Assembly: GCA_030642185.1 (NCBI GenBank)
Contig: DAOWOG010000122.1
Coordinates: 1 to 5,360 of the forward strand
Length of the DNA stretch: 5,360 nucleotides
Direction: 5' to 3'
Origin: Helicobacteraceae bacterium
GTDB lineage: Bacteria; Campylobacterota; Campylobacteria; Campylobacterales; Sulfurimonadaceae
The notes beneath the pieces are model-generated. The model was not told the origin of the DNA, made no database searches, and saw nothing but the letters and a program-made list of their open reading frames with translations. Each line of letters opens with the position of its first letter. Positions within the stretch are counted from its first letter, which is position 1. Shown here one piece after another: positions 4,889-5,360 of the stretch. A program made the translations under genes and the position numbers.

Positions 4889-4953
4889 CCGGAACCCGAA
4901 ACTTGTTTCGGGCTAACTGAGCTTATTTCCCTCCAACAAGTTCGAGGTTCCGG
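4889..4953. repeat. 65-bp inverted-repeat element with an internal hairpin (REP/MITE-like)
   Basis: The ends are CCGGAACC (4889-4896) and its exact reverse complement GGTTCCGG (4946-4953). The similarity continues inwards: read from each end, both arms show CCGGAACC, a three-base difference, then AACTTGTT. The left arm also forms its own perfect hairpin CCCGAAAC-TT-GTTTCGGG (4895-4912). No ORF is inside. This fits a small palindromic mobile or extragenic repeat; no target-site duplication is obvious. Confidence 0.55.
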
Positions 4954-5020
4954 TAATTTCTTTATTCACGCCGATAAATTCGTTCCGCCCCATCTTCAAG
5001 CCCTGCCTTTAAAGGATTAT

Positions 5021-5073
5021 TTTCTCGTTCCACTTCTCCCGGAAGAGGTGGAATGGAGAGGTGGAACAAGAAA
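5021..5073. repeat. Hairpin with tandem AGAGGTGGAA repeat and two alternative pairings
   Basis: TTCCACTTCT (5028-5037) can pair with AGAGGTGGAA at 5044-5053 (nine Watson-Crick pairs, one G-T, six-base loop). Part of it can instead pair with the second copy of AGAGGTGGAA at 5057-5066: GTTCCAC (5027-5033) with GTGGAAC (5061-5067), extended by TTTCT/AGAAA after one mismatch. The two copies repeat with a 13-base period. It lies directly upstream of the promoter at 5094-5099. Confidence 0.55.
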
Positions 5074-5090
5074 AGGGAAGTTTATAGTTG

Positions 5091-5099
5091 TGCTATAAT
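5091..5099 (+). promoter_or_regulatory. Strong extended -10 promoter (TGCTATAAT)
   Basis: A consensus TATAAT (5094-5099) is preceded by the extended -10 TGC. The upstream region (5081-5090) is T-rich, with no -35 consensus. The start is predicted near 5106. It drives the short terminated RNA at 5106-5183 and, by read-through, the small ORF at 5213. A minus-strand TATAAA at 5081-5086 overlaps it and could fire leftward into the hairpin at 5021-5073. Confidence 0.7.
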
Positions 5100-5105
5100 G
5101 CGTAT

Positions 5106-5183
5106 GCGAACAAACTTTTTGTGTTCTATGGAGCGGTAAAAGCTTTTGAGGCGAGGGATTAATTACCCCTCGCCTTTTTTTTT
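5106..5183 (+). ncRNA. Candidate small RNA of about 78 nt, possible antisense regulator of the ORF at 5213
   Basis: A strong promoter and a strong intrinsic terminator bracket 78 bases with no credible ORF. The 5' end can fold as ACAAA-CTT-TTTGT (5110-5122) or GAACA/TGTTC (5108-5126). A palindrome AAAAGCTTTT (5138-5147) precedes the terminator stem. The first bases, GCGAACAAA (5106-5114), are an exact reverse complement of TTTGTTCGC (5224-5232) inside the downstream hydrophobic mini-ORF; with base 5105 the match is 10 bp. AAAAGCTT (5138-5145) can also pair with AAGCTTTT (5219-5226). It shows none of the signatures I know for SRP RNA, 6S RNA or tmRNA. It may alternatively be the terminated leader of the same transcript that reads into the small ORF. 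Confidence 0.6.
5150..5183 (+). terminator. Strong rho-independent terminator
   Basis: GGCGAGGG (5150-5157) pairs perfectly with CCCTCGCC (5167-5174) around a nine-base loop and is followed by nine T (5175-5183). It sits between the promoter at 5094 and the small ORF at 5213, so ORF expression requires read-through, or a separate promoter that I do not see. Confidence 0.9.
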
Positions 5184-5212
5184 GCCCTCCAAGAATACAA
5201 AAAGGGGACACT

Positions 5213-5272
5213 ATGGATAAGCTTTTGTTCGCACTGCTGCTTATTTGCATTTTTGCACCTAAGTTGCTATAA
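5213..5272 (+). CDS. 19-residue hydrophobic peptide, candidate type I toxin-like membrane peptide
   Basis: The ORF reads MDKLLFALLLICIFAPKLL then TAA. AAAGGGGA (5201-5208) lies 4 nt before the ATG, a near-ideal Shine-Dalgarno. The peptide has a short charged start (Asp2, Lys3), a run of twelve mostly aliphatic residues (4-15) able to insert in a membrane, then Pro16-Lys17. Size and layout recall Ibs-type toxins (18-19 residues) and other type I toxins, but I see no sequence homology to a named family. Codons 3-7 are the region complementary to the upstream small RNA. The start and end share ATAAGCTT (5217-5224, 5269-5276), so the 5' coding end can pair with the bases around the stop (TAAGCTT with AAGCTTA). 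A chance ORF remains possible because of its length; the Shine-Dalgarno and the complementarity argue against that. Confidence 0.5.
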   Translation: MDKLLFALLLICIFAPKLL

Positions 5273-5281
5273 GCTTACTCA

Positions 5282-5295
5282 GGGGCTTTTGCCCC
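5282..5295. repeat. Hairpin GGGGC-TTTT-GCCCC after the small ORF
   Basis: A five-base GC stem with a four-T loop begins ten bases after the TAA of the small ORF. Downstream is GTCCCACCCTCTTTT, with no immediate T run, so termination would be weak. It could instead stabilise the 3' end, or its CCCC arm could pair with the GGGG of the Shine-Dalgarno at 5204-5207. Confidence 0.45.
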
Positions 5296-5327
5296 GTCCC
5301 ACCCTCTTTTGCATTAAACTTTTGTAT

Positions 5328-5353
5328 GGGTATACCAAGTAAAACTTGGGAAC
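5328..5353. repeat. REP-like palindrome CCAAGT-AAA-ACTTGG with conserved-looking flanks
   Basis: A perfect six-base stem (5335-5340 with 5344-5349) is flanked by GGGTATA on the left and GAACC on the right. I recall intergenic repeats of the form TGGGTATACC-stem-GGGAACCAG from sulfur-oxidising bacteria but cannot verify this here. The window ends seven bases later, so neighbouring copies cannot be seen. Confidence 0.35.
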
Positions 5354-5360
5354 CAGCGAA

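Follow-up and report, generated by a model that had tools for sequence, protein, structure and literature searches.

A candidate type I-like toxin–antitoxin element of Campylobacterota in which the leader RNA is complementary to a 19-codon gene on the same strand

Comparison of homologous loci establishes that a leader and the early codons of a real 19-codon gene following it on the same strand are complementary, and that this complementarity is conserved and specific to each locus. The element was studied in a window of 5360 bases that makes up an entire contig; the genome is fragmented, with 378 contigs totalling 1.88 Mb and a completeness of 80%. The explanation that we consider probable is a type I-like toxin–antitoxin pair arranged in the order of a type III system: the toxin's own transcript would begin with the antitoxin RNA, and this short RNA would block translation of the toxin.

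Organization of the locus

The element occupies the last 270 bases of the window, on the plus strand, and consists of TATAAT, a leader, a hairpin with nine T, a Shine–Dalgarno sequence, a 19-codon ORF and a further hairpin. The TATAAT (5094–5099) is the predicted −10 box of a single promoter, and the predicted transcription start, 5 nt downstream of it, coincides with the first base of R1. The predicted antitoxin RNA of ∼79 nt (5105–5183), described by a covariance model of 45 homologues, is composed of R1 at its 5′ end (5105–5114), complementary to codons 4–7 of the ORF; a second antisense arm, R2 (5115–5126), whose complement immediately precedes the Shine–Dalgarno sequence and extends into it; a conserved core, TGGAGCGGTAA (5129–5139); and a predicted intrinsic terminator (5148–5183) made of a hairpin followed by nine T (5175–5183). 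Next come the anti-core, TTGCCCTCCA (5182–5191), which pairs with the core across the terminator, and R2′, the target of R2 (5193–5204), which abuts the Shine–Dalgarno sequence. The latter, AAGGGG (5202–5207) plus AC (5202–5209 in all), has the 3′ tail GTCCC (5296–5300) as its predicted pairing partner. The ORF of the candidate toxin (5213–5272) encodes the 19-residue peptide MDKLLFALLLICIFAPKLL and harbours R1′, the target of R1 in codons 4–7 (5224–5233), within the loop of a predicted coding-region hairpin (5217–5222/5239–5244); a second coding-region hairpin, TGCATTTTTGCA (5246–5257), was predicted with RNAalifold. The element ends with a 3′ hairpin (5282–5295) and the tail complementary to the Shine–Dalgarno region (5282–5300 together), supported by RNAalifold and duplex energies. 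The TATAAT, the hairpin with nine T, the Shine–Dalgarno sequence and the 19-codon hydrophobic ORF lie where an earlier sequence-only reading of the window had placed them. The R2/R2′, core/anti-core and Shine–Dalgarno/3′-tail pairings and the coding-region hairpins were absent from that reading.

The order of predicted promoter, RNA, predicted terminator and toxin ORF is the same in the window and in 98 homologues, in which the length of the predicted RNA, with its start set at a constant distance from the core, ranges from 72 to 86 nt. A −10 box matching at least five of six positions precedes the first R1 paired base counted by 5–8 nt in all 97 scorable homologues of the 98. A simple consensus scan of the window listed neither the predicted promoter nor the predicted terminator (no −35 hexamer was recognized, and the loop limit was 8); the same scan, which thus missed the plus-strand promoter, revealed no promoter-like site on the opposite strand in 5000–5360. 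An Rfam scan of the window with E-values up to 1 retrieved neither Sib nor any other bacterial RNA family, and the matches to mir-320, MIR831, MIR6426 and mir-3914, microRNA models far below their cut-offs, were dismissed as chance.

Several other features of the window were recorded. A long inverted repeat, TTTTCTCGTTCCACTTCTCC/GGAGAGGTGGAACAAGAAAA, is located at 5018–5087, just upstream of the predicted promoter; in the Rfam scan, it was matched only by microRNA models far below cut-off. Another inverted repeat, GGAACCCGAAACTTGTTTCGGG ... TTCGAGGTTCCGG, noticed by eye, is present in the window at 4889–4957 and, in the opposite orientation, at ∼2005–2075 of L055, so that both copies of the element in this genome, the intact one and a leader-only one, are preceded by it; it is possibly a mobile palindromic repeat. 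Two overlapping minus-strand ORFs in different frames (1866–2471 and 2459–2650) may represent a single gene that a frameshift or an error of assembly has interrupted.

Distribution of the element

BLASTN searches against 100 related genomes yielded matches below an E-value of 1e-9 in eight further genomes, most of which carry several copies, some in tandem. An exact 20-base pattern of the ORF was found in 41 stretches of a collection with one genome per species. Two of these, L071 and L093, come from MAGs named as Clostridia and Rhodobacteraceae, outside Campylobacterota, and were rejected as chance matches lacking a leader or a start codon. The remaining ones are named as Sulfurimonas, Sulfuricurvum, Helicobacteraceae, Campylobacterales and one Arcobacter MAG, and include the isolate Sulfurimonas indica NW8N, whose record (L082) contains two copies in tandem. 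Within the window's family (228 genomes), the covariance model of 45 elements found matches in 70 genomes at E ≤ 0.1 and in 53 (counted by hand) at E ≤ 1e-5. Across the order, matches at E ≤ 0.01 were obtained in 41 of 398 genomes, and a second model gave matches in 24 of 398 at E ≤ 0.001. A phylum-wide draw of 397 genomes gave matches in 19 and added no further family at E ≤ 0.001. The element is multicopy within one Campylobacterota family, that of the window; the members read outside it come from families f4, f9 and f19. Matches of ∼3e-4 to 8e-4, obtained in f20 and in another two f9 genomes, were excluded from membership. An exact-pattern search gave no matches in viral contigs, and a distant blastn search of plasmids and phages, with the element of the window as the sole query, retrieved nothing.

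Unless stated otherwise, the comparisons below are based on 98 distinct intact elements extracted by a parser that required the core motif, a T-run of at least seven and an ORF similar to LMCIFAP; 46 of the 98 match the training set of the covariance model when compared by a loose string test.

The 19-codon ORF and its peptide

Counted from a conserved ATG, the ORF has 19 codons in 98/98 homologues and ends with TAG (43), TAA (31) or TGA (24); in two of the 98, there is an in-frame ATG five codons upstream. Among 67 representatives, pN/pS is 0.35 for codons 9–19, 0.65 for codons 4–8 and 1.48 for the nearly invariant codons 2–3. In the reading-frame control over the ORF, the ratio is 0.44 in frame versus 0.59 in frame +1 and 3.89 in frame +2, the +1 comparison not being a clean one. 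The sequence-only reading had named substitutions without coding constraint in the ORF as counter-evidence, and the low ratio in codons 9–19 bears out coding constraint. The leucine at position 10 and the cysteine at position 12 are invariant in the 98 sequences, and Pro16 is found in 95, although the motif required by the parser biases codons 10–16, including Cys12 and Pro16, towards conservation. The peptide has a GRAVY of 1.91. Together, these properties argue that a small hydrophobic peptide is really encoded. It is likely to be toxic and membrane-damaging, judging from its size, its hydrophobicity and the layout of the locus. NCBIfam and Pfam searches with two 20-residue relatives identified no family, the one Pfam row (E-value of 2.6) being under the cut-off.

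The multiple copies, the scattered contexts and the nested inverted repeats would also be expected of a mobile palindromic repeat of the MITE or REP kind, with inverted arms that happen to lie over a short ORF and no regulation. Such an origin is highly improbable given the coding constraint, the fixed length of 19 codons, the conserved promoter spacing and, in the close family, the exact run of nine T; moreover, inspection by eye revealed no shared ends beyond the promoter and the 3′ hairpin.

Co-evolution of the leader with the early codons

The exact 10-base complementarity between 5105–5114 and 5224–5233, regarded in the sequence-only reading as its strongest point, is real and exceeds chance. 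In the register of R1 against nucleotides 11–20 of the coding sequence, 10 of the 10 positions are paired in 75 of the 98 homologues, nine in 17 and eight in 6, whereas non-cognate combinations of leader and ORF reach at least nine pairs in 14% of cases. Pairs 1–7 are never broken in the 98, pair 8 is broken once, pair 9 in 13 and pair 10 in 15. Covariation between the two segments, which had been suggested as a check, is extensive, with changes on both sides at nine of the 10 pairs; from pair 1 to pair 10, the double changes number 11, 45, 33, 6, 61, 32, 5, 64, 45 and 0 among the 98 elements. They are few at pairs 1, 4, 7 and 10, which face second codon positions. The leader thus carries the three-nucleotide rhythm of the codons, because the second codon positions are mostly T, as is characteristic of hydrophobic residues.

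The duplex energies show the same specificity. For R1, the cognate mean is −12.9 kcal/mol compared to −4.1 kcal/mol for non-cognate pairs, and for R2, the corresponding values are −15.9 and −6.0 kcal/mol; in neither case were as low values reached in any of 10 000 permutations (98 elements). The cognate partner is the best or tied in 79 of the 98 rows for R1 and in 73 of the 98 for R2. Controls with swapped zones produced only small differences (−4.2 versus −4.0, 505/10 000; −2.8 versus −2.5, 770/10 000). When the whole arm was compared with the mRNAs of the first 45 elements, the own mRNA was the best for 44 of the 45 RNAs, and among paralogues within one genome, the whole arm ranked the cognate mRNA best in 28 of 28 cases.

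Alignments lead to a similar picture. In the alignment fitted to the model (92 rows, some of them opposite-strand shadows and a small number broken copies), 96.1% of the cells are paired, and 755 cells are changed on both sides, as opposed to 171 after shuffling and 91–118 after sliding. An unfitted MAFFT alignment of 45 elements has 85.3% of the cells paired and 226 both-side cells, versus 82 shuffled and 36–108 slid. The R1 helix is paired in 99.3% of the cells of the unfitted alignment. The R2 helix is paired in 97.2% of the cells of the fitted alignment, with both-side changes at 7 of 7 pairs, and in 64.8% of those of the MAFFT alignment, a drop that we attribute to register shifts.

Beyond R1, a second contact joins 5115–5139 with 5182–5204, spanning the terminator and reaching the Shine–Dalgarno sequence. 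Two further contacts that had been suggested from the window did not hold up among the homologues. A palindrome, AAAAGCTTTT, thought to pair with codons, is present in only 9 of the 98 leaders, and the AAAAAGG that was to pair with CCTTTTT of the terminator precedes the ORF in just one of the 98, the window itself; for the AAAAAG stretch, CTTTTTG at 5115–5121 is the better partner. Overall, the type I toxin–antitoxin-like interpretation put forward from the single sequence gains comparative support, in that both the ORF and the complementarity are kept, with changes on both sides. Base-pairing of the antitoxin RNA with the toxin mRNA, the hallmark of type I, is seen here as sequence covariation. 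The same complementarity, however, is available in cis, so that covariation alone is no proof of an RNA acting in trans.

Structure of the predicted transcripts

RNAalifold analysis of 45 full elements recovered the core/anti-core helix across the T-run, the ORF hairpin with R1′ in its loop, the second ORF hairpin, the 3′ hairpin and a helix between the Shine–Dalgarno sequence and the 3′ tail, in which pair 129–232 is changed on both sides in 15 of the 45. At core positions 8 and 9, pairing persists despite changes on both sides in 22 and 14 of the 98 elements, respectively. In the ORF hairpin, the pair between nucleotides 10 and 27 of the coding sequence is changed on both sides in 34 of the 98 and unpaired in 9, and the terminator hairpin displays both-side changes at all nine pairs of the model-fitted alignment. 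The Shine–Dalgarno/3′-tail duplex is stronger in cognate than in non-cognate combinations (−13.5 versus −11.7 kcal/mol, a gain of 1.7, matched in 0/10 000 permutations), but the effect is small, the cognate partner being the best in only 4 of the 98 rows. In single-sequence folds of the mRNA alone, the GGG of the Shine–Dalgarno sequence pairs downstream of the stop codon in 88 of the 98, and in those of the short RNA alone, the 5′ end is largely open in 44 of the 98.

R1, R2 and the core are nested around the hairpin and are all included in the read-through transcript, and minimum-energy folds of the full transcripts contain R2/R2′ in 98 of the 98 and R1/R1′ in 47 of the 98. The nesting and the constant presence of R2/R2′ would suit control exerted entirely in cis, whereby a self-inhibiting 5′ UTR folds back onto the sequences flanking the start site, the terminator does no more than attenuate the operon, and processing, temperature or a ligand opens the structure. 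We regard this scheme as unlikely. R1′ and R2′ are transcribed only after the T-run and, accordingly, are unable to decide termination, and the T-run and the ORF-less leaders described below also speak against it.

The T-run and copies without the ORF

With the loci anchored on the ORF alone and the longest T-run taken, a run of exactly nine T was counted in each of the 90 intact close-family loci. Nine T are also present in three further loci (two distinct sequences) in which the script missed the core motif. Among 21 copies with a deleted, disrupted or truncated ORF, nine T are found in 10 and 5–8 T in 11; the difference between intact and ORF-lost copies is pronounced (Fisher 7e-10), albeit inflated by shared descent. 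An invariant run of nine T cannot be extended to the whole family: it holds for the 90 close intact loci and fails for divergent elements, where the run is nine in 11, eight in 5 and seven in 5 (n = 21), and several of those with seven T carry a complete ORF. We infer that the T-run reflects selection on termination as long as a toxin lies downstream, strictly in the close family and more loosely outside it. Within the close family, the exact nine T of all loci with an intact toxin are difficult to reconcile with control solely in cis, whereas the seven-T runs of some divergent members make a strict metering of dose less general and, to that extent, favour it.

Leaders have repeatedly outlived the ORF. 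The 14 leaders without a working ORF that were examined retain the promoter, the arms, the hairpin and the T-run, which is not expected if the leader serves only in cis, and one more leader-only copy, L055, resides in the window's own genome. Conversely, a search of the 228 genomes with a pattern of the ORF allowing up to two mismatches gave 110 matches (none with the reversed control); this count and the comparison with the covariance-model matches were made by eye. Fourteen of the 110 have no model match beside them, of which 11 are unrelated sequences and three are remnants (L286, L287 and L288) devoid of leader and start codon, so that no complete toxin ORF without a leader was encountered among the 110 matches. 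The sequence-only reading had counted homologues that keep the RNA but lose the ORF against itself; such copies do exist, yet they are a minority. RNA-only copies in the minority and no ORF found without the RNA are what a toxin–antitoxin pair predicts.

Some of these copies are peculiar in other respects. In the L286 and L287 remnants, the promoter and R1 run directly into the part of the ORF that follows the R1 target, as though a deletion of the intervening stretch had been guided by the inverted pair R1/R1′. In L049, an intact element, whose ORF is at 1741, is directly preceded by two leader-only copies in tandem; these differ in their arms, have T-runs of 7 and 5, and both possess a promoter-like box. 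We make no claim that leader-only copies protect against a toxin of the same genome, given that a near-cognate partner among the loaded toxins of the same genome was found for just 2 of the 9 testable copies. The proposal that the leader-only L195 occupies the orthologous site of the intact L154 was abandoned as well, since the resemblance is limited to a few bases after the element and is unsupported by pairwise alignment.

The loss of the ORF also bears on what the peptide does. It might be no toxin at all but a signal peptide or a small regulator in the membrane, controlled by the antisense RNA, considering that toxicity is deduced solely from size, hydrophobicity and layout, and that Cys12 (98/98) and Pro16 (95/98) could mark a specific partner, even if the motif of the parser favours both residues. 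This possibility appears somewhat less likely still than purely cis-acting control: the variable copy number, the paralogue-specific pairing, the repeated disappearance of the ORF from copies that retain the leader, and the scattered contexts fit a toxin better.

Divergent members

Weaker matches extend the element to 21 divergent members from four families of the order (13 in f4, 3 in f9, 2 in f19 and 3 in the window's own family). Their peptides, for instance, MWRLLLIILLLCLLTKKLY (L212), MQQLLLIVILLMFVITKLH (L215) and MGNLIVIIVLLMLIITKLY (L219), keep the length and hydrophobicity. The cognate duplexes are again the stronger ones, for both R1 (−14.3 versus −6.6) and R2 (−28.7 versus −12.6; 0/10 000 permutations each), and the cognate partner is the best or tied in 13 of the 21 for R1 and in 19 of the 21 for R2. 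The R1 pairing is weak in L300, L215, L222 and L224, and the ORF is broken or without a start codon in L217, L222 and L224. In L203 (model match at record position 41860–41986), the R1 target overlaps the start codon rather than codons 4–7.

Proposed mode of action

Under the toxin–antitoxin interpretation, a single predicted promoter would make two RNAs of the same strand, the ∼79-nt RNA that ends at the nine T and a rarer read-through mRNA. The short RNA, complementary to codons 4–7 and to the stretch before the Shine–Dalgarno sequence, would be the antitoxin and act by blocking translation. R1 and R2 might bind as one continuous arm, looping out the Shine–Dalgarno sequence and the AUG, which would lead to repression and probably to double-strand cleavage. 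With a shared promoter, the terminator would set the excess of antitoxin over toxin mRNA. The read-through mRNA would be paired with its own 5′ arm from the moment of synthesis, the 3′ tail acting as a second lock, and a stable mRNA freed of that arm would become translatable once the short RNA runs out. Release of the toxin would then depend on differential decay and not on separate promoters. We favour a situation in which the antitoxin arm is both free, in the terminated RNA acting in trans, and attached, in the read-through transcript acting in cis. Sequence comparison demonstrates the RNA pairing, the coding nature of the ORF and its linkage to the leader, whereas toxicity, transcript ends, termination and repression are inferred in this scheme.

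We also lean, with less assurance than for the toxin–antitoxin pair as such, towards viewing these elements as a distinct class of RNA-controlled toxins. Such toxins would carry their own antitoxin as the 5′ end of the transcript, with a 26-nt arm that straddles the start site; the strictly kept U-tract would provide an excess of free antitoxin, and paralogues would be insulated from each other by the co-evolution of arm and codons.

Comparison with known toxin–antitoxin systems

Type I pairs, such as hok/Sok, TisB/IstR-1 and ZorO/OrzO, combine a small hydrophobic peptide with an RNA complementary to the toxin mRNA near the ribosome-binding site. The present element shares with them the small hydrophobic peptide, the complementary RNA and a predicted self-structure of the mRNA that sequesters the Shine–Dalgarno sequence. 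It differs in that the putative antitoxin is located upstream, on the same strand and behind the same predicted promoter, as the 5′ part of the read-through transcript, and in that the RNA is a split antisense contacting both sides of the start site. The Ibs/Sib systems of Escherichia coli consist of hydrophobic peptides of 18–19 residues, in several paralogous copies, and of antisense Sib RNAs from the opposite strand. The peptide size, the hydrophobicity and the paralogous copies are common to both, whereas Sib is encoded on the opposite strand, and no Sib match was detected in the window with Rfam.

In AapA/IsoA of Helicobacter pylori (PMC8322730), IsoA is an antisense RNA to aapA, AapA1 has 30 residues, and the full-length mRNA is inert until its 3′ end is processed. 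The phylum, the several copies, the small hydrophobic peptide and the idea of a locked mRNA are shared with the element described here; however, the pairing RNA of the latter is upstream on the same strand, and its peptide has 19 residues as opposed to the 30 of AapA1. The order of parts is that of type III systems, in which a repeat RNA inhibits an endoribonuclease toxin by binding to the protein, while the logic of the pairing is that of type I. In ToxIN, according to a review (PMC8167048), one promoter is followed first by the antitoxin RNA, then by a Rho-independent terminator and by the toxin, which is expressed through infrequent read-through; the order is the same here, with promoter and terminator being predicted. 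Our element differs in that it has no repeat array, its RNA is complementary to the mRNA, and the candidate toxin is a 19-residue peptide and not an endoribonuclease; inspection of the leader in the window showed no tandem repeat array. The same review (PMC8167048) also mentions that some adjacent type I antitoxins are divergent, convergent or parallel in orientation, so that a same-strand order is not unheard of and the element is better regarded as a variant than as a new category. No description of a toxin–antitoxin layout like this one was found in searches of the open-licence literature.

Implications

Pairs of this kind are invisible to protein-based annotation, and the layout suggests a search rule, namely, a leader complementary to the early codons of a 19–22-codon ORF behind a hairpin and a T-run. 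The ∼100 co-evolving pairs of RNA and codons constitute a natural library for tests of specificity, and the strictly kept U-tract offers material for studying how terminator length sets the dose of a toxin. If the proposed explanation is true, a single promoter suffices for type I control, and it is a terminator that determines the dose.
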